IMG/VR virus record: IMGVR_UViG_3300047287_000181
Location: 1 to 20,504 of that record
Length of the DNA stretch: 20,504 nucleotides
Origin: a virus
Direction: 5' to 3' (one strand)
Shown here: positions 6,997 to 16,838 of the stretch, in pieces
Numbering within the stretch: the first letter of the stretch is position 1
Layout of the letters: each line of letters opens with the position of its first letter
The notes under the pieces: model-generated
What the model was told of the DNA's origin: nothing
Databases searched by the model: none
The model's input: the letters and a program-made list of their open reading frames with translations, nothing else
Position numbers and translations under genes: made by a program

Positions 6997-9900
6997 TTAA
7001 CCCTTAATCTGTTTTAAATTAACATCAGTTAGTTGAGTGATAATATCAATGTCATCTACTGTTGCACTACTTATGAACAATTCATTTGCGCCACTGCTAA
7101 CTTGGAACAAGTCGCCAAATGTTGTACTTGTGCCTTGTGGTACTAGAACCACAGAGCTAATTGAACCTGCTAGCTTAGTGTGAATGTAAGCCGCTAGTTC
7201 TGTAAAATAAAATGTTTCGCCAAATGTCCAGTTAATGATTGAGAAGAACTCATCAATAGCCGCTAACACTTTGCTCTTAATTTCGTTGTCTGTCATTGCT
7301 GTGCCAGGCATCTTAATTACTTTAAATCTACCTGCCAATTCTTTGTCAGCATACTTTCCAAACAATAACTTGTACTTGGCTGGACGATAAACAATTGTAT
7401 CGCTACTTGTTTTCACATCTTCCAATGCGGCAAAGTTTTGATACAACTCTTGTGGTGTTGGAGGTAATGGCATGTCTTGTAGCTTGCCGCTGTTCTTCAA
7501 CCAACGACGATATGTTAAGTCGTAATCACTAGTTAACACAAACAAGTCAATGATGTTAATTGTACTTGGATCGATACGCTGATTGCTTTCTGCAACGTGA
7601 TGCCATTGCATATACAGGTCTTTACGGCCTGTTACATACTTTGTAGTTGCTGTATCAGTATAGTCATCGCCGTATGCTTGTTGGAATGTAATGCCGTTAA
7701 CTGTTGTGTAATCAACTTTAATTTGATTAGTGCCTACTAAACGTTCAAACACATAAGGATCATCTGGCAAGAAGTCGCTATTGTCGTCGGATACTGCAAC
7801 AACTAACTTAGTATTGTCTGTAAAGCTGTCTGCACCGATAAAGTACTTGTCGCTCTTAAACTCAGCTTTCTTTCCCAGGATACCTGTGCCTTCAGCATTT
7901 GTATTTGTTTGTAGGAAATAAATGCTATCACGTTCAACTTTAGTTGTTTCGCTGTTAAGTGCTTTCTTAAAGTTTTCGTTGAAGAAACGAACTTTGTTTT
8001 CGCTACCAACAATGTAACGAATAGCCTTGTTCACTACTACGTATTGTCCGTTTTCGTAAGTTACTTTAATCAACCAACTGTTGTCTTTGTTTAGCTCGCT
8101 GTTGTCTCCAGCAAACTCGTCACTGTAAAATGCACTGGTACCTAGATTGTTTTGAGTTACAATTTTGTAAGTTTGTGTTAGATAGTCATAACGGATACCG
8201 AATGTGTTCTTAGCTACTAACAAGTCGAATATTAATCCGTACTCAGTTGTGCTGAATACTTGTTTGAATCTAGGAATAATTCTAGAAATAGTGCTAGCAG
8301 ACTTGATGTTTTTGCTTAGTGCTACAGTACCAGAACCGTCAAGTTTTTTGCCGGTGTCAATGCCGTTTAAGTCTTGTTCGCCCAAACCGTTGCCATAAAT
8401 GTTAGTAATTGCGGCCCAAGTTTTTGTTCCAGCAGAATCAAATTCTACTAAAGAACCTTGTTGCAATAAACGCAATAAACCTGTTGTAGCATTACCTACT
8501 TTGATAACTTCGGCAGTTGTGCCGCTTTGTGGTACACCGGTAAAGTAACCTGTACTAGTACCACTGTTGATAGTTGTTCTGTTCCATGTTACGTTAGTAG
8601 GACTGCCCGTTACTTGAGTGTAAGTAATTGCAGGGAAAATGCTATAGAACATGTTAACAACTTCTGGTTGTGTAAATGCGCCTGAAATGTGTTCAGTAAT
8701 CAAATTACGCAAGAAATAGTTGTTGCTAATGCTGTAGTAGTTTGTTGTGTAAAACTCATCTTTGTATACATAACCGTCATCACTGAAGATATCCAAACTT
8801 TGGTTAGTGCCTGTTGGATCAGTTACGTTAGTGTATCTGCTAAAACCACTGTGGATCCTGTTGACTGCTTTAATCTTTAAGATGTTAGAGCTTTGTGTTA
8901 GTGGATAGACACTGTAGTCTTGTCCAGTAACCATACGGTCCTGACTGTAGTATGCACTAGGTGCATTAGCACGAACGCTTTCAATGCTTTCCGACGGGGT
9001 GCTGTTGCTTACGTTGTACTCTAAGTCAGCAATCATAGTTAGGAATTGCTTTTTACCTACCTTATCGTAGTATGCAATATCCCATGTAATGTTCTTCATA
9101 TCGTCTGGGCGGATGGTATAAGTCAATCCGTTACTAGTGCGTGACCATACACGAATGATACCACGTGGTACATCGCTAAAATATCCGTCGCCAAACTTGA
9201 TACTAATCTTATCGCTATCGCGAGTAATTACGCTACAAATTTTACGTTGTCCCAGACTGTAACTGTTATAGATAACGTTGTTACCTACTAAGTTAGGCAC
9301 GTTTTTCCAATTTGTAACTACGCTACCATCTTCATTGATTGTTTGTACATAAACGTCTTGTTCGTTGATGTTCTCAATGTCAATGTCTAGTACACGGTTT
9401 TCAATGTAATCGTTTAACTGATAGTCGTTTTTGTTTAGTTGGCCTTGTTTGAATGTAACAAAGAATCCTGTATTGGCACTAGTATTACCTGTTCCGTCAT
9501 TGCGGTACAACAAGTTAAATGCGGCCATTGGATCTGGCGTGGCTTCTTCGTAGTACCCTAAGTCAGCAAAGTCACTGTTACAAATTTCAAAGTTACTGCT
9601 AATACCTGCAACTGATGCAGAATAGCTGATAGCCACTTGCTGATCGGGAATACTGTTTAAGCTGTATAGCTGGCTAGTTACGCCACCTACGGTACCTGCT
9701 TTAACTGGATTACCAAACAAGTGGTTAGTACTAAAGGCACTGTTCATAATAGTAATGAATTTTTCAAAGCTATCAGGATCGTTAACACCCGCCCACTGAA
9801 TTGTTTTATTGGCCAGGTTGTTACCTGTGTTGTCTAAAACATTTTCTGTAGTCTTGATTGCTTTGATTTTCATCAAGCCTTGTGCCGCAATGTTACGCTT

Positions 9901-10224
9901 AGGGTTGTAGCTTAAGAAACGAGCAAGACGCAATACGTTTTCTTTACGCTCGGCAGTATCAATAAAGTTTTCACGAGCATTTAAGTCAATACGAAAACCT
10001 AAGTTTTGTCCTAAGAACGCAACTAAGTCGATAAGGGCAACAAATTCACTAGACTGGATCCAGTCGTTAAAATCTTCTGGATAGTTGGTACGAATATAAT
10101 CAATCATTGCGGAACGCAATGTGTCGAAATCGTAGGCTTTAAAATCAGCGTTTCTAAAACTCTGATATACACTTTGCCAGTTCTCTGCGGCAAATAAATT
10201 TTCTTGTCTGATAGTTTGAGTCAT
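6997..10224 (-). CDS. 6: Baseplate wedge protein gp6-like, long form
   Basis: This is a 1075-residue protein whose N-terminal 120 residues carry the gp6 signature: ENWQSVYQSFRNADFKAYDF, then a stretch ending SSEFVALIDLVAFLGQNLGFRIDLNARENF and LRLARFLSYNPKRN. In T4, gp6 forms the dimer ring holding the six wedges together around the hub. The C-terminal part (about 985-1045) has the INWTFGETFYFTELAAYIH segment ending in SSVVLVP, typical of gp6/baseplate-J-like proteins. It is about 400 residues longer than T4 gp6 (660 aa). The extra length appears to lie in the middle, roughly residues 480-950, which is Thr/Asn/Asp-rich. The start follows the gp25 stop by 9 bases, with a TAAGG ribosome site overlapping that stop. 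The next gene starts one base after its own stop, so gp25, gp6 and the giant gene form one translational unit. Function is well supported; the role of the extra segment is unknown. Confidence 0.92.
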   Translation of the reverse strand: MTQTIRQENLFAAENWQSVYQSFRNADFKAYDFDTLRSAMIDYIRTNYPEDFNDWIQSSEFVALIDLVAFLGQNLGFRIDLNARENFIDTAERKENVLRLARFLSYNPKRNIAAQGLMKIKAIKTTENVLDNTGNNLANKTIQWAGVNDPDSFEKFITIMNSAFSTNHLFGNPVKAGTVGGVTSQLYSLNSIPDQQVAISYSASVAGISSNFEICNSDFADLGYYEEATPDPMAAFNLLYRNDGTGNTSANTGFFVTFKQGQLNKNDYQLNDYIENRVLDIDIENINEQDVYVQTINEDGSVVTNWKNVPNLVGNNVIYNSYSLGQRKICSVITRDSDKISIKFGDGYFSDVPRGIIRVWSRTSNGLTYTIRPDDMKNITWDIAYYDKVGKKQFLTMIADLEYNVSNSTPSESIESVRANAPSAYYSQDRMVTGQDYSVYPLTQSSNILKIKAVNRIHSGFSRYTNVTDPTGTNQSLDIFSDDGYVYKDEFYTTNYYSISNNYFLRNLITEHISGAFTQPEVVNMFYSIFPAITYTQVTGSPTNVTWNRTTINSGTSTGYFTGVPQSGTTAEVIKVGNATTGLLRLLQQGSLVEFDSAGTKTWAAITNIYGNGLGEQDLNGIDTGKKLDGSGTVALSKNIKSASTISRIIPRFKQVFSTTEYGLIFDLLVAKNTFGIRYDYLTQTYKIVTQNNLGTSAFYSDEFAGDNSELNKDNSWLIKVTYENGQYVVVNKAIRYIVGSENKVRFFNENFKKALNSETTKVERDSIYFLQTNTNAEGTGILGKKAEFKSDKYFIGADSFTDNTKLVVAVSDDNSDFLPDDPYVFERLVGTNQIKVDYTTVNGITFQQAYGDDYTDTATTKYVTGRKDLYMQWHHVAESNQRIDPSTINIIDLFVLTSDYDLTYRRWLKNSGKLQDMPLPPTPQELYQNFAALEDVKTSSDTIVYRPAKYKLLFGKYADKELAGRFKVIKMPGTAMTDNEIKSKVLAAIDEFFSIINWTFGETFYFTELAAYIHTKLAGSISSVVLVPQGTSTTFGDLFQVSSGANELFISSATVDDIDIITQLTDVNLKQIKG

Positions 10225-10631: not shown

Positions 10632-10874
10632 TTAATGCAAAGTAGGCTTTGCTTGTTGTATTTCAATCTTGTCCAGTAAGTCTGCAACGTTATCGTCGTT
10701 GAGCATTTGGGTATTAATTAACTTAATAACCTCTTTGAAGAACTCGACATTTTTAGGCAATTCAATGCTGTGCGTTAAGCTAGGATAAATGAAGTCCAAT
10801 TGGCCATTTTCTTTGATAATAATGGCGCAGTCTTTGGGTCCGCATTGATATCCTTTGTGTAAATCGGTTGACAT
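10632..10874 (-). CDS. Small protein of unknown function upstream of gp25
   Basis: The 80-residue product is acidic and mixed in composition, with CGPKDCAIIIKENGQLDFIY near the N-terminus followed by a helix-prone region (VEFFKEVIKLINTQML). The two cysteines (CGPKDC) could be structural. I do not recognise the family for certain; small proteins with an IIIKENGQLDF-like opening do occur in T4-like marine phages. It is the first gene of the gp25-gp6-giant leftward run, 32 bases before gp25. Its ATG (10874-10872) sits inside the -35 element of a promoter firing the other way. No good ribosome site is visible. A late-like AATAAATA box lies 25 bases upstream of its start. Reality of the gene is supported by position, length and sensible composition, not by a known homolog. 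Confidence 0.65.
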   Translation of the reverse strand: MSTDLHKGYQCGPKDCAIIIKENGQLDFIYPSLTHSIELPKNVEFFKEVIKLINTQMLNDDNVADLLDKIEIQQAKPTLH

Positions 10875-10896
10875 GAATTATGATTTATTGTAAAAT
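10868..10896 (+). promoter_or_regulatory. Sigma70-type promoter P4, with half-conserved palindromic spacer
   Basis: TTGACA (10868-10873), 17-base spacer, TAAAAT (10891-10896). The right arm ATTTATTGT (10883-10891) is identical to that in the two promoters at 14462 and 14793. The left arm ACATGAATT matches the family arm at 6 of 9 positions. It drives the rightward gene at 10929, with an expected start of transcription near 10903. Its -35 covers the start codon of the leftward gene at 10874. Confidence 0.8.
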
Positions 10897-10928: not shown

Positions 10929-11330
10929 ATGACCATGCATCTAGCGCATCCTAGCCTAAGTACTACTGGTAAGAAAAAAGGTAAACGTAAGTTTGCCAGT
11001 GCAGAAGCCAAACGCAGGGCAGAAGCACTTGACGCCAGCTGGGCTGAACTTAAAAAGTCCCATGGCGTTTCAGAAGAAGACAAACGCCGCAAACGTGCAA
11101 TGGCCGCTCCTCCACTTAATAGTGTTTACTCATTGAAGCCGCCGCCTGGCCGCGAAACTACGCAACACATTAAGAGCCTAGGACAAGACAATGGGGTGGC
11201 TACAATGTCGGCCCCCAAGGTTTACACTGGCACCAAAGTCAAAGGTATTGCTACTATGCACAAGAGCAATGCTGTGCCTGTGTTCAGTGACGAAGAAGCT
11301 GTTGAAATTTCTAGGATGCGTAGAGGTTAA
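10929..11330 (+). CDS. Conserved phage protein of unknown function (basic N-terminus, C-terminal THKSNAVPVF-type motif)
   Basis: The 133-residue product starts at an ATG preceded by GGAGA at 10919-10923, a good ribosome site; a second ATG two codons later is less well placed. The N-terminal 60 residues are very Lys/Arg-rich (GKKKGKRKFASAEAKRRAEA) and helix-prone, which suggests nucleic-acid or acidic-partner binding. The C-terminus carries KGIATMHKSNAVPVFSDEEA and ends EISRMRRG, a pattern I recall from many unannotated marine and freshwater phage proteins. No function is known to me. It is a single gene with its own promoter (P4), pointing rightward between two leftward operons, so it is likely expressed with the other P-type genes near 14-16 kb. 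Its stop overlaps the stop of the leftward oxygenase gene within TTAA. Confidence 0.85.
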   Translation: MTMHLAHPSLSTTGKKKGKRKFASAEAKRRAEALDASWAELKKSHGVSEEDKRRKRAMAAPPLNSVYSLKPPPGRETTQHIKSLGQDNGVATMSAPKVYTGTKVKGIATMHKSNAVPVFSDEEAVEISRMRRG

Positions 11331-12013
11331 TCTTCTACTGCACTAGTAAACACGCTGAGTCCTATTTTGCCATGGGCACCTGCTCGTAAAAAGTTGCTGG
11401 CTACATGTAGGTGCCTGCGGTCAAAAACAAACACATTACCTGGCTTCCATTCAAAACGCTGTTTGACTGTAAGGCCTTCAAAGTTGCTACGGGGCAAATG
11501 ACTGCAATCTGCAACCAAGTCTTCGTCGAACCCTTTGTCCAGTTCAGCGACATCTGAGTAATCTGTTACAACCTTATTGTATTCTTCTTGTACATCAGTG
11601 CTACCTTTAACAAAGAACGCGGCTGGTCCGTACCAACGTTGATTTAATACATACAAGGAATTCTTTGCGGCATCGTAGTTTGTGCCCGCAAATACTTTAA
11701 GCGGGAACACAAATGTCTTCCATGGACTTGGATCCGGTAGTCCTGTATCTGTGTGTATTCTATAGGGCACTTTGGTATCAAAAAAGTTGCCACTGTCGAT
11801 TTTCCAAGTACCTTCGCCTATCTCTTTGTTTATAATAGGTGTGATTATTTCCAGGACTTTGGGCGTCAGGTTACTAAAGTATCTGCCCTTGTATTGTGCA
11901 TAACTGTTAGGGTCGTAGTCTTTGAGTTCTTCTTTGTAACCCGCGGCCCTGTGTTCCATTAGTAACTGGGTACGGGTAAACATGTCTACAGCATTTTCTA
12001 AAAAGTATGCCAT
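11327..12013 (-). CDS. 2OG-Fe(II)-dependent oxygenase-like protein
   Basis: The 228-residue product has the double-stranded beta-helix oxygenase signature: YRIHTDTG supplies the H87-x-D89 metal pair, FVFDRRHLHVASNF supplies the distal histidine (H201 or H203), and K216 in AHGKIGLSVF is the likely 2-oxoglutarate carboxylate ligand. Such enzymes hydroxylate or oxidise a substrate using Fe(II), O2 and 2-oxoglutarate; phage members are common and their substrates are mostly unknown. It is the last gene of a four-gene overlapping cassette. Its ATG shares a base with the stop of the QueC-like gene (TAATG), so translation is probably coupled. Its stop overlaps that of the rightward gene at 10929. 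The fold assignment is strong, the substrate unassigned. Confidence 0.82.
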   Translation of the reverse strand: MAYFLENAVDMFTRTQLLMEHRAAGYKEELKDYDPNSYAQYKGRYFSNLTPKVLEIITPIINKEIGEGTWKIDSGNFFDTKVPYRIHTDTGLPDPSPWKTFVFPLKVFAGTNYDAAKNSLYVLNQRWYGPAAFFVKGSTDVQEEYNKVVTDYSDVAELDKGFDEDLVADCSHLPRSNFEGLTVKQRFEWKPGNVFVFDRRHLHVASNFLRAGAHGKIGLSVFTSAVED

Positions 12014-12645
12014 TATTGTGTACCTGGGTCACGTTTTGTTAATTGTGTGAATGCCCAATGACGTTCTGCACATTGAAAACATTGTCCGCATCTGCCTACT
12101 TGCTGTTCAGTGCAACTGTGACTAAGTTCAAGTAATTGCTCTTGCCCAAATTGATAATACAAGTCCAATGTATGACGTTTGTCTAAGTCTACAAATGGCA
12201 CTTGGGCTCGCTTATAGTTGTTATGCGTAGGCCGCTCCGGATACAGTCCGGGCATAGGCCATTCTTTAGGAGGAGTTTGCTGACTGCCGTAGAATACATA
12301 ATCAGCAATACCGTTTAGAACTTCTATGGTTCCTGTTTCAACTTGTTTACTATGGTGTACTGTAGGATCTCCTACTTGTATGGGTGCAGGTAAATCCAAC
12401 TCTAATACTCTGTTTACATATTGCACAATATCAGGACTGTAACGATAAGCGCCATCTGTGCGAGGTACTGTAAAAGGAATGATTTCTTTAGGCTGTGGCA
12501 AGGCTTTGTTTAGCTTGGCCACAAGATATAGTAATATGGCACTGTCCATACCACCACTGACTGTTACGCCAATCTTCTTTGGCCATACAGGAATGTATAT
12601 ATTAAATGTTCTTTGATCGTTTGCGGGTCCGCATGTAATAAGCAT
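12013..12645 (-). CDS. QueC-like PP-loop ATPase with Cys4 zinc site
   Basis: The 210-residue product has a PP-loop (VTVSGGMDSAILLY, residues 27-40), the AMP-forming ATP-pyrophosphatase signature, and a C-terminal Cys cluster SCTEQQVGRCGQCFQCAERH with C178, C186, C189 and C192, as in the zinc site of QueC. QueC turns 7-carboxy-7-deazaguanine into preQ0 using ATP and ammonia; phage and bacterial relatives serve tRNA queuosine or 7-deazaguanine DNA modification. The spacing C-x7-C differs by one from the C-x8-C I recall for E. coli QueC. No queD, queE, folE or DNA transglycosylase is in this window, so the pathway may be elsewhere in the genome, supplied by the host, or the substrate may differ. 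Both ends are coupled to neighbours by TAATG overlaps. Assigned to the superfamily with confidence; exact QueC activity is inference. Confidence 0.78.
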   Translation of the reverse strand: MLITCGPANDQRTFNIYIPVWPKKIGVTVSGGMDSAILLYLVAKLNKALPQPKEIIPFTVPRTDGAYRYSPDIVQYVNRVLELDLPAPIQVGDPTVHHSKQVETGTIEVLNGIADYVFYGSQQTPPKEWPMPGLYPERPTHNNYKRAQVPFVDLDKRHTLDLYYQFGQEQLLELSHSCTEQQVGRCGQCFQCAERHWAFTQLTKRDPGTQ

Positions 12646-13349
12646 TAGTGTCTATGTTGCAAATGGGCAATAACCTTATTGACGTTTGCAACTGTAAATG
12701 GAATATTCATAATCAAGTGGATACTATCATCGGTCCAACTGATTGTTCTATGTGTCTTTTTCGTGTTCACATAGTATACACGGCCTTGTTCGATATTAAT
12801 TTTCTTATCGTCCATCCACCAGTCGTACTGTAGTGGTGCAACGTTCTTAACAAAGCAAGCTAACCTAAACTCTCTGCGAGGAAAGCCCGGGCTGTCCCTG
12901 TGTGGCACAAAGTATCCGCCCGTACCGCACTTGACTAAAAAGCTTCGGCCAACAGGAGCAAACTCTTCGAACAATGGATGTAAGCTGGCACAAGCATCAT
13001 ACAATGCTGTTGGCTTGGTAAATGCACTATCGCCTACCGGACGACCTAAGGCTTGGGCGGCTTCGGGCAAGCTGGGCAAGCTACGATGGTCCCAACCTTC
13101 CATGTCCAATGTTGTTAAACTAAGTCCTTTGCGATTGTTTGGCCGATCTGTACGAGGCAAATAATCAACCCAGTCGTTGGAAAACACCGACAGCTCTTGC
13201 TCAAGCTGTGCGGTGTCAATCATATAGTCTAAAGGTTCAAAGTCCCCTATACCCAGGAGCGCAGTTTCCGCAACTAGTTTGTCGTAATTGCTAATTGCTG
13301 GGTCTACTGCACTCCTGCTGTGACTTATACCTTTTCCGTCTACTGTCAT
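12645..13349 (-). CDS. Aspartyl/asparaginyl beta-hydroxylase-like oxygenase
   Basis: The 234-residue product has a C-terminal hydroxylase core: GGYFVPHRDSPGF gives H150-x-D152, KKTHRTIS gives distal H200, and the segments REFRLACFVKN and NIEQGRVYYVN match the beta-strands and the E-x-G turn usual in aspartyl/asparaginyl hydroxylase-like proteins. These are Fe(II) enzymes that hydroxylate Asp/Asn side chains or small substrates. The N-terminal 130 residues are less recognisable. The ATG overlaps the stop of the HNH gene (ATGA), and its own stop overlaps the next start (TAATG). It differs in sequence from the other oxygenase in the cassette, so the two are not a simple duplication. A protein in the tail operon (16816-17301) appears to share its fold without the metal ligands. 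Substrate unknown. Confidence 0.8.
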   Translation of the reverse strand: MTVDGKGISHSRSAVDPAISNYDKLVAETALLGIGDFEPLDYMIDTAQLEQELSVFSNDWVDYLPRTDRPNNRKGLSLTTLDMEGWDHRSLPSLPEAAQALGRPVGDSAFTKPTALYDACASLHPLFEEFAPVGRSFLVKCGTGGYFVPHRDSPGFPRREFRLACFVKNVAPLQYDWWMDDKKINIEQGRVYYVNTKKTHRTISWTDDSIHLIMNIPFTVANVNKVIAHLQHRH

Positions 13350-13885
13350 GCGGCCTTTACTAACTCATCGGGCCAGTGGATGTATTCCTTCCACGCTTCG
13401 TCCCTGATGTAAATTGTTTGTTTACGAGCAAGTTTAGCCATTTCCCAGTAAGTAGGCGCACGTGGTGCAACCAACGGTTCCATTGGGTCCGTACCTTTAA
13501 CAAAGTTACAAGTACGGCAAGCGGTTACAATGTTGTCCCAATTGGTTTCGCCACCTTGGCTACGTGGCACCACATGGTCGAACGTTAAGTCGTCAACATG
13601 GAACTGTTCACCACAGTACTGGCAACGATGGCCGTCACGCATGTAAACCATTTTACGGTTAAATGCCACACCAAAGCTAGGGTTTATATATTTGGTAGCC
13701 ACAATAATGCTGGGCACAGGAATAGTCAAGTGTTGACTATGCACTTCCCAATCGTCATAGTTTTTAATTACTATGGCTTTTTCAGAAAAGACTGCCTTAA
13801 TGGCTGTTTGCCAGTCAACCGTGCTCAGTGGAACCAAGCAAAGTGGCTGGTAGTCTGCGTTTAATACTAGTGTGTCAGAGCTCAT
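13346..13885 (-). CDS. HNH endonuclease family protein
   Basis: The product has the common HNH layout: DTLVLNADYQPLCLVPLSTV at the N-terminus, then a CQYCG...DHVVPRSQGG...CRTCN core. CxxC pairs bind zinc, the DH pair in FDHVVPRSQGG supplies the catalytic His, and NWDNIVTACRTCN closes the motif. Such proteins nick or cut DNA; phage examples include packaging helpers and free-standing homing enzymes. I place the start at the ATG at 13885 (179 aa), because the HNH-family opening follows at once and the string before it (TAAATATTGCTATG) matches that before gp25. A TTG at 13909 would add eight residues, but it sits at the expected transcription start and looks leaderless. First gene of the overlapping four-gene leftward cassette. 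Whether it serves packaging or the oxygenase/QueC-like genes is open. Confidence 0.87.
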   Translation of the reverse strand: MSSDTLVLNADYQPLCLVPLSTVDWQTAIKAVFSEKAIVIKNYDDWEVHSQHLTIPVPSIIVATKYINPSFGVAFNRKMVYMRDGHRCQYCGEQFHVDDLTFDHVVPRSQGGETNWDNIVTACRTCNFVKGTDPMEPLVAPRAPTYWEMAKLARKQTIYIRDEAWKEYIHWPDELVKAA

Positions 13886-13896
13886 AGCAATATTTA
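13883..13896 (-). promoter_or_regulatory. TAAATATTGCTATG start context of the HNH gene
   Basis: This 14-base string ends in the HNH start codon and matches the gp25 start context at 12 of 14 positions. No Shine-Dalgarno site is present. It supports the ATG at 13885 as the start and may be a late-type box next to the start, or an A/T-rich initiation context. Confidence 0.3.
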
Positions 13897-13915
13897 AGTG
13901 GGTGGTCAAAACGCT

Positions 13916-13944
13916 AGTATAACATCATTTGCTATTTCGAGCAA
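13916..13944 (-). promoter_or_regulatory. Weak sigma70-type promoter for the HNH/oxygenase/QueC-like cassette
   Basis: On the minus strand TTGCTC (13944-13939), a 17-base spacer and TATACT (13921-13916) would start transcription near 13909, about 24 bases before the HNH ATG. The -10 is good, the -35 matches only the first three bases. The spacer does not carry the palindrome seen in the rightward promoters, so control may differ. Confidence 0.35.
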
Positions 13945-13955
13945 TTAAATACTGT

Positions 13956-14138
13956 ATGCTTGAACGTGTGCCTGCAACCGAAAAACAAAGACGCTTGGAT
14001 GTGTGTACCGCATGTCCATTCTTTGTGCAAGCCGCGTGGACTTGCAAAAAATGCTGGTGTTACTTGCCTGCCAAAGCCAGCTTCAAAAAGACCCGATGCC
14101 CTGAAGGGAAATGGACAGTTGACAATAAATCCAATTAA
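13956..14138 (+). CDS. Small Cys-rich zinc-ribbon protein
   Basis: The 60-residue product (ATG at 13956) has paired cysteines, RRLDVCTACPFF then WTCKKCWCYLPAKASF and a final RCPEGKW, giving C-x2-C...C-x2-C-x-C...CP. This matches a small zinc-binding family often seen in phages, whose CPxGKW ending is characteristic. Function is not established; a zinc-stabilised DNA or protein adaptor is likely. A TTG at 13929 would extend it by nine residues but lies upstream of any sensible ribosome site, so I prefer the ATG. No clear Shine-Dalgarno is seen. It diverges from the HNH cassette across a 70-base gap. Its stop codon TAA lies within the spacer of the next promoter, so the promoter and gene end overlap. 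Confidence 0.75.
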   Translation: MLERVPATEKQRRLDVCTACPFFVQAAWTCKKCWCYLPAKASFKKTRCPEGKWTVDNKSN

Positions 14139-14147
14139 TTGTATAAT
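14119..14147 (+). promoter_or_regulatory. Sigma70-type promoter P1 with palindromic spacer
   Basis: TTGACA (14119-14124), 17-base spacer, TATAAT (14142-14147): both hexamers are perfect consensus. The inverted repeat is ACAATAAAT (14122-14130), CCA, ATTAATTGT (14134-14142), with one mismatch. It drives the gene at 14178 and overlaps the end of the preceding coding region. Confidence 0.9.
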
Positions 14148-14177
14148 AGCGAAATCGTTAACAAATTCTAACATTGT

Positions 14178-14465
14178 ATGGACTTTAACGCAAGCGATTT
14201 CGGATTCCTAGGTTGGAACAATGCACCCGGACACGATAAAATTTGGGGTTTTATTAAGACTAGTCAAGGGATTTTTAGCTTCTGGGGTCGCAGGGGCAAG
14301 AGTTTGTCGTTTAAAGAATACACTAGTATGTGGGACGTTGAAGCCGTTGCTAATAAAAAGGAATATTCGGGCTATAAACGACAATTTAATACCGAAGTAT
14401 TACCCCCGGATTTTGAGGGGCAATTAATGATGGCCTGCTTGGGCAAAGTAAAGTTTTCGGCTTGA
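14178..14465 (+). CDS. Small WGR-like protein
   Basis: The 95-residue product contains LGWNNAPGHDKIWGFIKTSQ, then GIFSFWGRRGKSLSFKEY. The order of a strand pair followed by the WGRRGK core recalls WGR domains, which bind nucleic acid or partner proteins and occur beside ligases and PARPs. That is a motif-level resemblance, not a search result. The C-terminus (LPPDFEGQLMMACLGKVKF) is helical in pattern. The ATG at 14178 lies about 24 bases after the expected transcription start of P1; no Shine-Dalgarno is visible, so the start is the least certain part. It stands alone behind its own promoter. Its TGA stop is embedded in the -35 hexamer of the next promoter. Likely early and accessory to DNA metabolism, as the downstream ligase suggests. 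Confidence 0.7.
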   Translation: MDFNASDFGFLGWNNAPGHDKIWGFIKTSQGIFSFWGRRGKSLSFKEYTSMWDVEAVANKKEYSGYKRQFNTEVLPPDFEGQLMMACLGKVKFSA

Positions 14466-14490
14466 CATTAAATCCAATTTATTGTATAAT
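14462..14490 (+). promoter_or_regulatory. Sigma70-type promoter P2 with palindromic spacer
   Basis: TTGACA (14462-14467), 17-base spacer, TATAAT (14485-14490), both perfect consensus. Arms ACATTAAAT (14465-14473), CCA, ATTTATTGT (14477-14485) pair with one mismatch. The preceding gene's TGA stop (14463-14465) is part of the -35. It drives the 88-residue gene at 14521. Confidence 0.9.
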
Positions 14491-14520
14491 AACACTATTG
14501 TAACGCAAAAGGAGTTTGAA

Positions 14521-14787
14521 ATGTTCGTAATGTATAACTTTTCCTATCCTAACTACAAGCCCCGTTATTTCGAAACTGAACGCGGCGCTCGTATTGCACA
14601 AGGTCGCAACAACAAAAACCCCAAAAACTTCCAGTGCGGTGTGCTCAGCCACAAAGCATTTGACGAGCTTTTTGGTAATAAAAAAGTTACTGTCAAGAAC
14701 TTGATGACGGGCATGGACGTGGAAATCCTGGAATCGGACCGCGGTACTTGTAACGACCCCAGCCAAGAACGCTATTTTTCCATGTAA
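14521..14787 (+). CDS. Small phage protein of unknown function
   Basis: The 88-residue product starts at the ATG at 14521 after an AAAAGGAG ribosome site; the open frame extends further upstream only into the promoter. It opens MFVMYNFSYPNYKPRYFETE, and the C-terminal half reads KKVTVKNLMTGMDVEI and ends SQERYFSM. The C-terminal pattern (VKNLMTG...DPS.E.YFSM) is one I recall from unannotated proteins of T4-like marine phages. Predicted as a small beta-rich domain; no catalytic motif is visible. It is a single gene with its own promoter (P2), followed six bases later by the next copy (P3). Expressed early, by promoter type. Confidence 0.8.
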   Translation: MFVMYNFSYPNYKPRYFETERGARIAQGRNNKNPKNFQCGVLSHKAFDELFGNKKVTVKNLMTGMDVEILESDRGTCNDPSQERYFSM

Positions 14788-14792
14788 TTTGG

Positions 14793-14821
14793 TTGACAAT
14801 AAATCCAATTTATTGTATAAT
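14793..14821 (+). promoter_or_regulatory. Sigma70-type promoter P3 with perfect palindromic spacer
   Basis: TTGACA (14793-14798), 17-base spacer, TATAAT (14816-14821), both perfect consensus. The inverted repeat ACAATAAAT (14796-14804), CCA, ATTTATTGT (14808-14816) is perfect. It drives the LPD29-like gene and, with no promoter between, probably the ligase and the 79-residue gene. Confidence 0.92.
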
Positions 14822-14854
14822 ACTTACATAGACAGCAACAAACAGGAGTTTTAA

Positions 14855-15262
14855 ATGGCTTACATTACCGCAGAAGACGTCAAAGCAATCCGCAACGAAC
14901 TCAAAGCTCGTTACCCGCAATTCAAATTTGGTTGCAAAAAGGGTGCAGGTAGCCTCAGCGTTGATGTTACCATTAAACAAGGTCCCGTGGACTTTATTGA
15001 AAACTATTTGACTGGTGCTACTCCTGGCGCCAATGTAGATTACATTCGCAAAGCTGGTTCCGTTCAAGTGAACCCTTACTGGCTGGACAGCACTTACTCC
15101 GGCGAGGCCTTGACAATCCTTGAAGATATTGTTAAAATTGTCAAGACTGCACCCAAGCGCGGTTGGTACGATAATTCTGACGCAATGACGGATTACTTTG
15201 ATACCGCTTACTACTTTCACATCAGCATTGGCGAGTGGAACAAACCTTATCAAGTGGCCTAA
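14855..15262 (+). CDS. LPD29-like domain protein
   Basis: The 135-residue product opens MAYITAEDVKAIRNELKARY and continues PQFKFGCKKGAGSLSVDVTI with KQGPVDFIENY, which fits the LPD29 domain (large polyvalent protein-associated domain 29), found in phage and plasmid proteins and often in anti-restriction or mobile-element contexts. Its activity is unknown. The C-terminal half has two YY-containing strands and a helix (EALTILEDIVKIVKTA). The start has an excellent ribosome site, ACAGGAG, eight bases before the ATG. It is the first gene after promoter P3 and lies 12 bases before the ligase, with which it is probably co-transcribed. I recognise the family by motif memory; an independent domain search would be the test. 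Confidence 0.8.
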   Translation: MAYITAEDVKAIRNELKARYPQFKFGCKKGAGSLSVDVTIKQGPVDFIENYLTGATPGANVDYIRKAGSVQVNPYWLDSTYSGEALTILEDIVKIVKTAPKRGWYDNSDAMTDYFDTAYYFHISIGEWNKPYQVA

Positions 15263-15274
15263 TTAGGAAAATAA

Positions 15275-16588
15275 ATGAAACAACCTTTTGAAATTATCCA
15301 AGAGCTAGAGTCTGATAACAGTAGACTCTTCAAAGAAGATGTTATTAAACAAACTGCCGAAGCTGGCAATGACATTTTCTTTGAAGGATGTAAGATGGCA
15401 TTTGATGCTATGATTACATTTGGTGTTAAGCAAGTGCCTACGCACGGTGGACCTGACGGACAAGGACTTCCTTGGGACGCCTTTGTTGAGCTAGCAGAAA
15501 ATCTTCGTACCCGTGCGATCACTGGCAACGAAGCACGTCAGGCTATTGAGCTTTGCCTAAGTGCGGCCAAGCAAGACGAATGGAATTTCTGGTATCGCCG
15601 TATTCTTATCAAAGACTTGCGTTGCGGTGTCAGTGAAAAGACTGTCAACAATGTCGTTGGCAAAAAATTTAAACAATATGCTATACCAGTTTTTAGCTGT
15701 CAGCTTGCTCATGATAGTGCTAATCATGAATCGAAAGTATCTGGACGCAAACTTATCGAAGTTAAACTCGACGGGGTCCGCGTTATCACTGTTGTTTATC
15801 CAGATGGGCGTGTTGATCAGTATAGCCGTAACGGTAAAGAGCTTGTTAACTTCCCACATGTGAAAGAACAGTTGGCAAAGGTTGCTGGACAGTTTACTGA
15901 AGCAATGGTACTAGACGGCGAAATCATGTCGGGTAGTTTCCAAGACTTGATGAAACAAATCCATCGCAAAAGCGATGCACAAGCCCAAGATGCTGTGCTT
16001 AATCTGTTTGACGCACTGCCATTGGTGCAGTTTGAAAAAGGCATTAGCCCTACTACACAAACTCAGCGCAGTGAATGGCTTAATGCGTGGTTCAGTTCTA
16101 ACAAAGATGCGTTGCCCAATGTAACTGTAGTTGGACAAGAACTTGTTGACTTGGACTCTGCCGAAGGGCAAAAGCGATACAAAGAAATTAATGCACAGGC
16201 CATTGCTGGTGGCTACGAAGGCATCATGCTTAAAGATATTGATGCTCCTTACGAAGTTAAACGTAGTGTAGCATGGCTTAAACTTAAACCATTCATCGAA
16301 GTCAGCTTGAATGTAATCGGTGTAGAGGAAGGAACTGGTCGCAATGAAGGAAGACTTGGCGCAATTATTTGTGAAGGTGACGACGACGGAAAATTTATCA
16401 CCGTTAACGTTGGTAGCGGTTTCACTGACGCTAACAGGGATGATTATTGGACTGCTAAAAATCGACTTCTTGGGCAAGTCGTTGAAGTTCGTGCAGACGC
16501 AGTTACACAGAACCAGGATGGTTCTTATTCGCTCAGGTTTCCACGGTTCTTACGTTTCCGAGGCTTCGAAGCTGGCGAGAAAATCTAA
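15275..16588 (+). CDS. ATP-dependent DNA ligase
   Basis: The 437-residue product has all core nucleotidyltransferase motifs in order: motif I K164-L-D-G (EVKLDGVR, the AMP-accepting lysine), SRNGKEL (184-190), motif III LDGEIM (213-218), motif IV EGIMLKD (315-321), and motif V AWLKLKP (333-339). A C-terminal OB-fold (about 343-434) ends RFPRFLRFRG. It seals nicks in duplex DNA using ATP, as T4 gp30 does (487 aa), acting in replication and repair. The N-terminal 130 residues are a helical domain, as in phage ligases. The ATG follows the LPD29-like gene by 12 bases with AGGA as ribosome site. The 79-residue gene follows after 10 bases. All key residues are present; no sign of decay. Confidence 0.95.
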   Translation: MKQPFEIIQELESDNSRLFKEDVIKQTAEAGNDIFFEGCKMAFDAMITFGVKQVPTHGGPDGQGLPWDAFVELAENLRTRAITGNEARQAIELCLSAAKQDEWNFWYRRILIKDLRCGVSEKTVNNVVGKKFKQYAIPVFSCQLAHDSANHESKVSGRKLIEVKLDGVRVITVVYPDGRVDQYSRNGKELVNFPHVKEQLAKVAGQFTEAMVLDGEIMSGSFQDLMKQIHRKSDAQAQDAVLNLFDALPLVQFEKGISPTTQTQRSEWLNAWFSSNKDALPNVTVVGQELVDLDSAEGQKRYKEINAQAIAGGYEGIMLKDIDAPYEVKRSVAWLKLKPFIEVSLNVIGVEEGTGRNEGRLGAIICEGDDDGKFITVNVGSGFTDANRDDYWTAKNRLLGQVVEVRADAVTQNQDGSYSLRFPRFLRFRGFEAGEKI

Positions 16589-16598
16589 TAGGGTAATT

Positions 16599-16838
16599 AT
16601 GACACCAGAAACAGTAAAGGCAATGTTATATGGAGGCTTAAAAGAGCTAACAAACAATAAGAAGTATTTTCGCAAAAGCGATATTGGCCGCAAGCATGAG
16701 TATAGCGGCTGGACTGAAGACGGTGCTTCTGAAGTCAATGAGTTCGTCAAACTGATGACCACGCAGTTGCTAATAGCAGAAGATACTGCCATTGAAGATA
16801 AAGCAAAAGATATGGTTATGGAGAACTTAAAGAAATAA
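16599..16838 (+). CDS. Small conserved phage protein of unknown function
   Basis: The 79-residue product starts at the ATG at 16599, ten bases after the ligase stop; the frame is open further upstream but only inside the ligase gene. It reads MTPETVKAMLYGGLKELTNN, then KYFRKSDIGRKHEYSGWTED and ends in helices (EFVKLMTTQLLIAEDTAIED, KDMVMENLKK). It is highly helical, with an SDIGR/GWTE core that I recall from small unnamed phage proteins. No function is known to me. The ribosome site is weak (ATAGGG). It is the last gene of the P3 unit, and its last 23 bases overlap the end of the leftward gene at 16816. The intrinsic terminator 61 bases downstream should end this transcript. Confidence 0.8.
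   Translation: MTPETVKAMLYGGLKELTNNKKYFRKSDIGRKHEYSGWTEDGASEVNEFVKLMTTQLLIAEDTAIEDKAKDMVMENLKK

Follow-up and report, generated by a model that had tools for sequence, protein, structure and literature searches.

In tetO, an operator dyad lies in the spacer of a sigma70 promoter and is occupied there by a dimeric repressor. The T4-type phages carry promoter early stem-loop (PeSL) elements (PMC4503421). In the Cluster A mycobacteriophages, such as L5 and Bxb1, most stoperators are not associated with promoters, according to PMC6550527, and one mycobacteriophage repressor is described in PMC9283540 as a monomer on an asymmetric site. Here we analyze a repeated promoter cassette in the IMG/VR virus record IMGVR_UViG_3300047287_000181, the entire 20,504 bases of which are the stretch studied (hereafter the window); as the window is the whole record, the record is probably a fragment. 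Comparison of the cassette with its relatives in other phages argues that the spacer between its -35 and -10 boxes is kept by selection, and divides that spacer into a left half common to related phages and a right half specific to the phage type.

On the plus strand of the window, TTGACA-N17-TATAAT occurs without mismatch three times, at 14119-14147, 14462-14490 and 14793-14821. These are the sole perfect-box matches at spacings of 15-19 on both strands (mean expected 0.03), and none of 100 dinucleotide shuffles yielded three such promoters. An earlier reading of the window from its letters alone (the sequence-only reading) had picked out these three rightward promoters, and its inverted repeat across the spacers and box edges likewise holds up. 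The repeat is a 21-bp dyad, ACAATAAAT-CCA-ATTTATTGT, with a 3-nt centre. It is perfect at 14796-14816 in the third cassette (TTGACA-ATAAATCCAATTTATTG-TATAAT), and a single A/T pair is broken in each of the others: pair 6 in the first (TTGACA-ATAAATCCAATTAATTG-TATAAT, dyad at 14122-14142) and pair 4 in the second (TTGACA-TTAAATCCAATTTATTG-TATAAT, dyad at 14465-14485). Both in its length and in its position over and between the boxes, the dyad would suit a repressor operator placed in a promoter spacer. The ungapped repeat stops after 31 nt. As had also been proposed, each copy serves a small gene of its own on the same strand: a 30-nt leader to the ATG (14148-14177) precedes gene 1 (14178-14465, 95 amino acids), another of 30 nt (14491-14520) precedes gene 2 (14521-14787, 88 amino acids) and one of 33 nt (14822-14854) precedes gene 3 (14855-15262, 135 amino acids). 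These are presumably early genes. In the first cassette, positions 14119-14138, which comprise the -35 box and part of the spacer, double as the last codons (VDNKSN, stop) of an open reading frame (ORF) at 13929-14138.

A consensus was derived from 66 non-redundant sites, left from 72 once near-identical contexts had been removed; one of the 66 is doubtful, namely the second site of a 338-kb record, with TAAAAT. It reads TTGACA-wtwAAT-CCA-ATTwAwTG-TATAAT. In both arms A and T are interchangeable at pairs 4 and 6, the two arms have the same half-site, ACAwTwAAT, and pairs 1-3 and 7-9 are nearly invariant; pair 5 varies on the left only (7/66) and pair 6 is broken in 26 of the 66 sites. Other perfect palindromes exist, for instance ACATTAAAT-CCA-ATTTAATGT and ACAATTAAT-TCA-ATTAATTGT, and in two of the 66 sites the centre is reversed (TGG or TGA, the complements of CCA and TCA) with the direction of the boxes unchanged; both kinds of site are suggestive and too few to carry weight. 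Upstream of the -35 box there is a clear preference at only two bases, and the -10 box is followed downstream by an A, by YATwG near the likely start and by a short leader running to the ribosome site. Thus, the conserved unit is a promoter plus leader rather than a long repeat.

The exact 29-mer was found in 16 stretches of IMG/VR, and a pattern allowing A or T at four arm positions with a free centre in 34 stretches on 26 IMG/VR contigs, several of them near-duplicates; as these loci were found by patterns, the counts give no estimate of the share of phages carrying the cassette. A 231-kb contig has 16 cassettes, lying near 71, 115-119 and 218-227 kb, and the 338-kb record has one site at up to 3 mismatches. 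Against the phage collection, blastn of window positions 13000-16600 found no DNA relative, and a BLAST search with the 31-nt element gave no convincing match (best E 0.8). Among 84,980 species genomes of bacteria and archaea, none matched the A/T-tolerant cassette pattern; the bare dyad, allowing one A/T choice, matched once, in a Clostridia metagenome-assembled genome, which we take as chance. With the palindromic-type pattern missing from prokaryote genomes, the motif looks like a phage element rather than a borrowed host operator. The sequence-only reading had allowed for a phage-encoded or a host regulator; these results favor the former, and a host operator taken over by the phage is not supported.

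Selection on the spacer was gauged against fourfold-degenerate sites of the genes downstream. When all ortholog pairs were averaged by family, the nine gene families with cassettes differed at 0.105 of spacer positions and 0.441 of fourfold sites, with ratios of 0.07 to 0.56, below 0.6 in all nine. As controls we used four promoters of other genes in the same phages: that of an AAA ATPase gene, that of a gene whose product we take, by its look alone, to be a VWA-domain protein, and two others, the window promoter at 10868-10896 being among the four. Their spacers differed at 0.271 of positions and their fourfold sites at 0.399, with ratios of 0.35 to 1.33 (Mann-Whitney p 0.034 for cassette versus control ratios by family); the ortholog groups were built from class-like sites with at most 7 spacer mismatches, at most 4 for cassettes, which lowers the cassette differences, and the controls came from the same list. 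Hand-picked pairs give a sharper contrast (16/204 spacer against 158/351 fourfold differences in 12 cassette pairs, 26/85 against 174/424 in five control pairs, p 2e-6 between the spacers), the all-pairs figure by family being the fair one. In the 12 picked pairs both half-sites are conserved, with 9/72 differences on the left and 6/96 on the right. Leaders were better kept than spacers in three of the four control groups at distant pairs, and the reverse was seen in most cassette pairs. Even in the single-copy case, the 338-kb record, the spacer has 0/17 differences to that of a homologue with 22/44 identical residues. Orthologous cassettes retain their spacers despite divergence at fourfold sites, so that something presumably reads the spacer, and together these comparisons argue that selection keeps the spacer of this promoter class.

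In other phages, genes homologous to these small ones are often preceded by this cassette with an unchanged left half and another right half. Among 316 loci of such homologues (those of the queries included), 87 have the palindromic type when this is loosely defined, 172 have a different promoter with no more than 2 mismatches in the boxes, and 57 have neither. The largest sister type, TTGACA-ATAAAT-NNN-TTTGGGTA-TATAAT (the TTTGGG type), accounts for 220 sites in 100 loci; a smaller one has the right half TATTCCTG. The two main types are mutually exclusive. Among the 93 loci that have two or more cassette-like sites, 60 have the TTTGGG type only, 18 the palindromic type only and 12 none of these types, the rest being one locus with both main types (L007, a doubtful match), one with TTTGGG and TATTCCTG, and one with TATTCCTG only. 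Behind both types we found 17 gene families. The right-half type follows the phage and not the gene, because 105 of 106 scorable sites match the type of the other cassettes in their locus, coherence being scored in loci of up to 20 kb; at this locus scale, therefore, the site sequence is specific to the phage type.

Left halves from one locus resemble each other no more than left halves from different loci do (z -1.3), left-half likeness being a search or selection criterion in the locus and type comparisons, and the centre and right half are locus-specific (z about -17). In ortholog pairs of the TTTGGG type (n=386) the differences per site were 0.097 on the left, 0.509 in the centre and 0.209 on the right against 0.505 at fourfold sites, values that are lowered on the right by typing on the right half and also on the left by the typing rule. 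Homologous promoters in these loci that were recognized by their boxes only keep the left half within one base of ATAAAT in 224 of 243 cases. With its common left half and phage-specific right half, the spacer thus has two modules. The inner pairs AA..TT are common to both types, a hint of symmetry in each.

We tentatively favor the following mechanism. In large aquatic myophages, copies of a sigma70-type promoter cassette would give small accessory genes their own strong promoter and a short leader, and the spacer would hold a two-half recognition sequence, with the left half ATAAAT next to the -35 box common to the related phages seen and the right half type-specific and common to the cassettes of one phage. 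In the palindromic type the right half is the reverse complement of the left, so that spacer and box edges make up the 21-bp dyad. A phage-encoded dimeric DNA-binding protein may sit on this dyad between the boxes, where it would block the host RNA polymerase and thereby shut off, or time, all these genes together. The coherence of type among the cassettes of one phage, and the lack of the palindromic pattern in the prokaryote genomes searched, make a phage-encoded factor the best fit. A dimer on the dyad is its likeliest, though unproven, form, because a mirror match would arise by chance with a probability near 0.01. This figure derives from 333 sister promoters with the left half retained: going by their right-half columns, all eight free pairs match with P 2e-4 and at least seven with P 4e-3, for one founder sequence and after the fact, and with some tens of lineages we estimate the chance to be near 0.01.

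Several results weigh against such a dimeric operator. Arm co-variation, the lack of which the sequence-only reading had named as refuting, is not seen when right arms are shuffled within contigs (p 0.43; pair 4 p 0.14, pair 6 p 0.92). The sister right halves are conserved and non-palindromic, so that a conserved spacer exists without a dyad. The centre CCA, which a plain dimer would not need, is conserved like the arms (58, 62 and 62 of 66). No promoter-free site at up to 3 mismatches was found in the 18 records with sites, of 20 searched: every site of that likeness there, as in the 231-kb contig, lies within a promoter with at most one box mismatch, and the contig has only two weak promoter-free sites, at 4-5 mismatches. 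The contrast with the controls is moderate and the ranges overlap, one control group (10 pairs) having a ratio of 0.35, with pairs of 0 and 1 differences, and one cassette family reaching 0.56. Searches for HTH_3, RHH_1 and MotCF gave no match in eight records, most of them fragments. In the 231-kb contig, Pfam searches with 169 of 170 small minus-strand ORFs (50-260 amino acids; one overlapping ORF omitted) returned no transcription-factor family among all 46 family rows, the ORFs coming from 335 called by a simple script. Finally, the early promoters of phage T4 have extra consensus positions, which PMC2988021 describes as polymerase-optimised. Thus, where conserved arms had been read as the mark of a dimeric protein between the boxes, the conservation stands, in that the spacer is kept at orthologs beyond the controls; the co-variation, the non-palindromic sister right halves and the regulator searches lend the dimer no help.

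The co-variation result depends on how the shuffle is made. With an unrestricted shuffle over all 66 sites, p was 0.008 overall and 0.010 for pair 4 by itself, signals that lineage composition may explain; with one row per distinct 29-mer (31 rows) the p value was 0.13. When unrelated phages were pooled, pairs 4-6 gave p 0.23 and pairs 7-9 p 0.004; the latter set includes unrelated promoters and was set aside. Co-variation as proof of an operator was accordingly dropped, being lost once shuffles stay within contigs. However, a protein that reads each half separately and tolerates A or T need not force the arms to co-vary, so the null removes support and does not exclude an operator; we take it as missing support rather than refutation.

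The T4 case points to the alternative that there is no regulator and that the spacer is tuned to the host RNA polymerase, for speed of opening or escape, its types differing because hosts differ. The left half abuts the -35 box and is common to all types seen, the conserved block stops with the initiation region, and two of the four controls also keep their spacers better than fourfold sites (ratios 0.35 and 0.46). Spacer identity, however, is a minor input to sigma70 promoters. Good-box promoters of other genes in the same phages have other spacers, which change more on average, and the palindromic-type pattern is missing from all 84,980 prokaryote genomes, the sister types lying outside the patterns of that search. 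We consider such tuning rather unlikely, yet a serious rival.

A trans-acting phage factor might instead read the common left half and the type-specific right half without being a symmetric dimer, whether as a monomer, a heterodimer or an accessory protein bound to RNA polymerase; the palindrome would then be one of many right halves, which happens to mirror the left. In keeping with this, in the largest sister type the 3-nt centre changes freely while the right half is conserved without being palindromic, the box-only promoters mostly keep the left half, and the centre is conserved in the palindromic type. Against it stand the low probability of a chance match at all eight pairs, both for one lineage and, less strictly, over tens of lineages, and the AA..TT inner pairs of both types with their hint of symmetry. 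On balance we think a non-symmetric reader unlikely.

Tandem copies, 71, 85 and 94 nt apart, raise the question of a mobile promoter-leader cassette, spread by recombination, whose copies are alike through recent copying or gene conversion and have no other role. Leaders that are alike between unrelated genes would fit, as would the genes common to the phage types, each with a promoter of the local type, as if genes had been swapped behind resident promoters. However, copies within a contig are no more alike than copies between contigs (2.29 versus 2.35 differences of 17, p 0.43), orthologous spacers differ at about 10% of positions against 44% of fourfold sites, the single good site of the 338-kb record is kept without a conversion partner, and leaders diverge more than spacers in most cassette pairs. 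Mobility as the sole cause is strongly disfavored and, to our minds, improbable; with it falls the recent cassette duplication that the sequence-only reading had offered as its alternative. The 56-nt stretch between cassettes 85 nt apart (L009, L010 and L011, minus strand) is alike in three phages and is possibly a short untranslated RNA; it folds well in one of them (-14.9 kcal/mol, z -3.9) and poorly in two.

A role for the palindrome as a hairpin in RNA or DNA, for instance as a 3' end signal of the upstream gene, is very improbable: the perfect form does fold (-4.1 kcal/mol, z -8.5), but the one-mismatch form seen most often has a folding energy of 0 and another form one of -0.9 kcal/mol, which rules out an RNA hairpin as the conserved structure, pair 6 is often broken, as noted above, and the window copies have no T run after the palindrome.

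We return to the phage-encoded regulator that would bind the spacer, for which a few candidates were considered. The product of gene 1, with the motif FWGRRGK, has homologues in six other phage loci. Two distant homologues match PF05406 without reaching the family cut-off (E 0.018 and 0.0078), and the window protein itself has no match. Its structure model (predicted local distance difference test score 84.7) has weak structure matches, the best at E 0.023, and the top five include a Bacteroides fragilis protein and chains of PARP-1 and PARP2, which carry WGR domains. The suggested WGR-like fold makes the protein look like a stand-alone WGR domain, which we treat only as a lead. WGR domains bind nucleic acid; we know of none that acts as a sequence-specific regulator. 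At E 0.01, neither Pfam nor PHROGs has a family matching gene 2. Gene 3 carries an LPD29 domain (PF18847, E 9e-8; phrog_10415), the model of which has no obvious helix-turn-helix in its secondary structure, no fold search having been made with it. For the scanned small ORFs of the 231-kb contig, the PHROGs rows comprise the best 25 of 69 and the best 25 of 58; phrog_3636, which bears the label 'DNA binding protein', has matches in 9 of 14 control genomes too and is, we guess, a Dps/ferritin-like protein.

Elsewhere in the window, a related promoter, TTGACA-TGAATTATGATTTATTG-TAAAAT, lies at 10868-10896 (+) upstream of an ORF at 10929-11330 (phrog_27048, function unknown). The right arm ATTTATTG is present in it and the left arm is not; with homologues in four other phages, its spacer shows 0-6 changes of 17 and its leader is better kept. 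An ATP-dependent DNA ligase gene follows gene 3 and has no perfect-box copy of its own, and a QueC-like protein is encoded at 12013-12645 (-) (phrog_1550, E 1.7e-10, residues 148-206 matched). Homologues of the long ORF at 6997-10224 (-) occur in 67 phage records; the 20 matches listed share 37-41% identity, come from records of 286-490 kb and, where their labels are informative, are annotated as baseplate wedge proteins. In the cultured relatives SCTP-2, phi30-2 and GAP32 there are 23 perfect-box promoters, with 1-6 of the 9 dyad pairs; Atu_ph07 has no perfect-box promoter. In GAP32 (JN882285.1), three perfect-box promoters at 11183, 11575 and 14725 have a common spacer of their own, ending in GTTAGAGTACTT. 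A cultured jumbo phage may thus have a conserved-spacer promoter set too.

Spacers of sigma70 promoters are usually thought free to drift, and here selection keeps that of one promoter class. The type-specific right half offers a handle on the supposed regulator, which should be a gene differing in step with this tag; its discovery would explain how a large phage shuts off or times a whole set of accessory genes together. One could go further and imagine a genome-wide operator code in large phages, with one right-half tag per phage type, a matching phage regulator and a common left half, the tag having changed genome-wide together with the regulator. We regard such a code as doubtful; were it true, the types would decide whose early genes are shut off in a mixed infection, an immunity-like effect without lysogeny.

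No description of the cassette was found in the part of the open-access literature searched, where the string TTGACAATAAAT occurs in two papers, both on mice. Among described systems, PeSL elements share with it many strong, near-consensus sigma70-type promoter copies between small genes, and gene swapping has been proposed for them; here 17 gene families stand behind both spacer types, which may or may not reflect recombination at the element. The sequence-only reading had already set the two apart, and rightly so: here the dyad overlaps the promoter rather than following it, and there is no consistent RNA fold. In the first 40 nt after the likely start of the 66 sites, the median folding energy is -2.6 kcal/mol and only two leaders, both in tandem copies, lie more than two standard deviations below shuffles, so that identity with PeSL is rejected for want of a downstream stem-loop. 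The T4 early promoters are likewise near-consensus host-type promoters with extra conserved positions, but the accessible text of PMC2988021 describes neither a phage-type-specific right half nor a spacer dyad for them. Halovirus HF2 has repeated intergenic sequences that carry promoters of early-middle genes and are suspected to hold regulator sites; in contrast to the present case, these are archaeal TATA/BRE promoters in repeats of 58 and 29 bp, with no spacer dyad described in the part of PMC8707807 at hand. The operators and stoperators of Cluster A mycobacteriophages, as portrayed in PMC6550527, also number tens of short sites per genome, of a group-specific type, with repressor and site types matching. 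Here, however, every good site is inside a promoter and one type is a dyad, so the sites are not a stoperator set. Like tetO, the palindromic type has a dyad within the spacer of a sigma70 promoter; tetO differs in having one or two sites and a known repressor, against up to 16 copies in one phage contig. By analogy, then, the cassette looks like an operator placed in a promoter spacer, with a type specificity that resembles that of stoperators.

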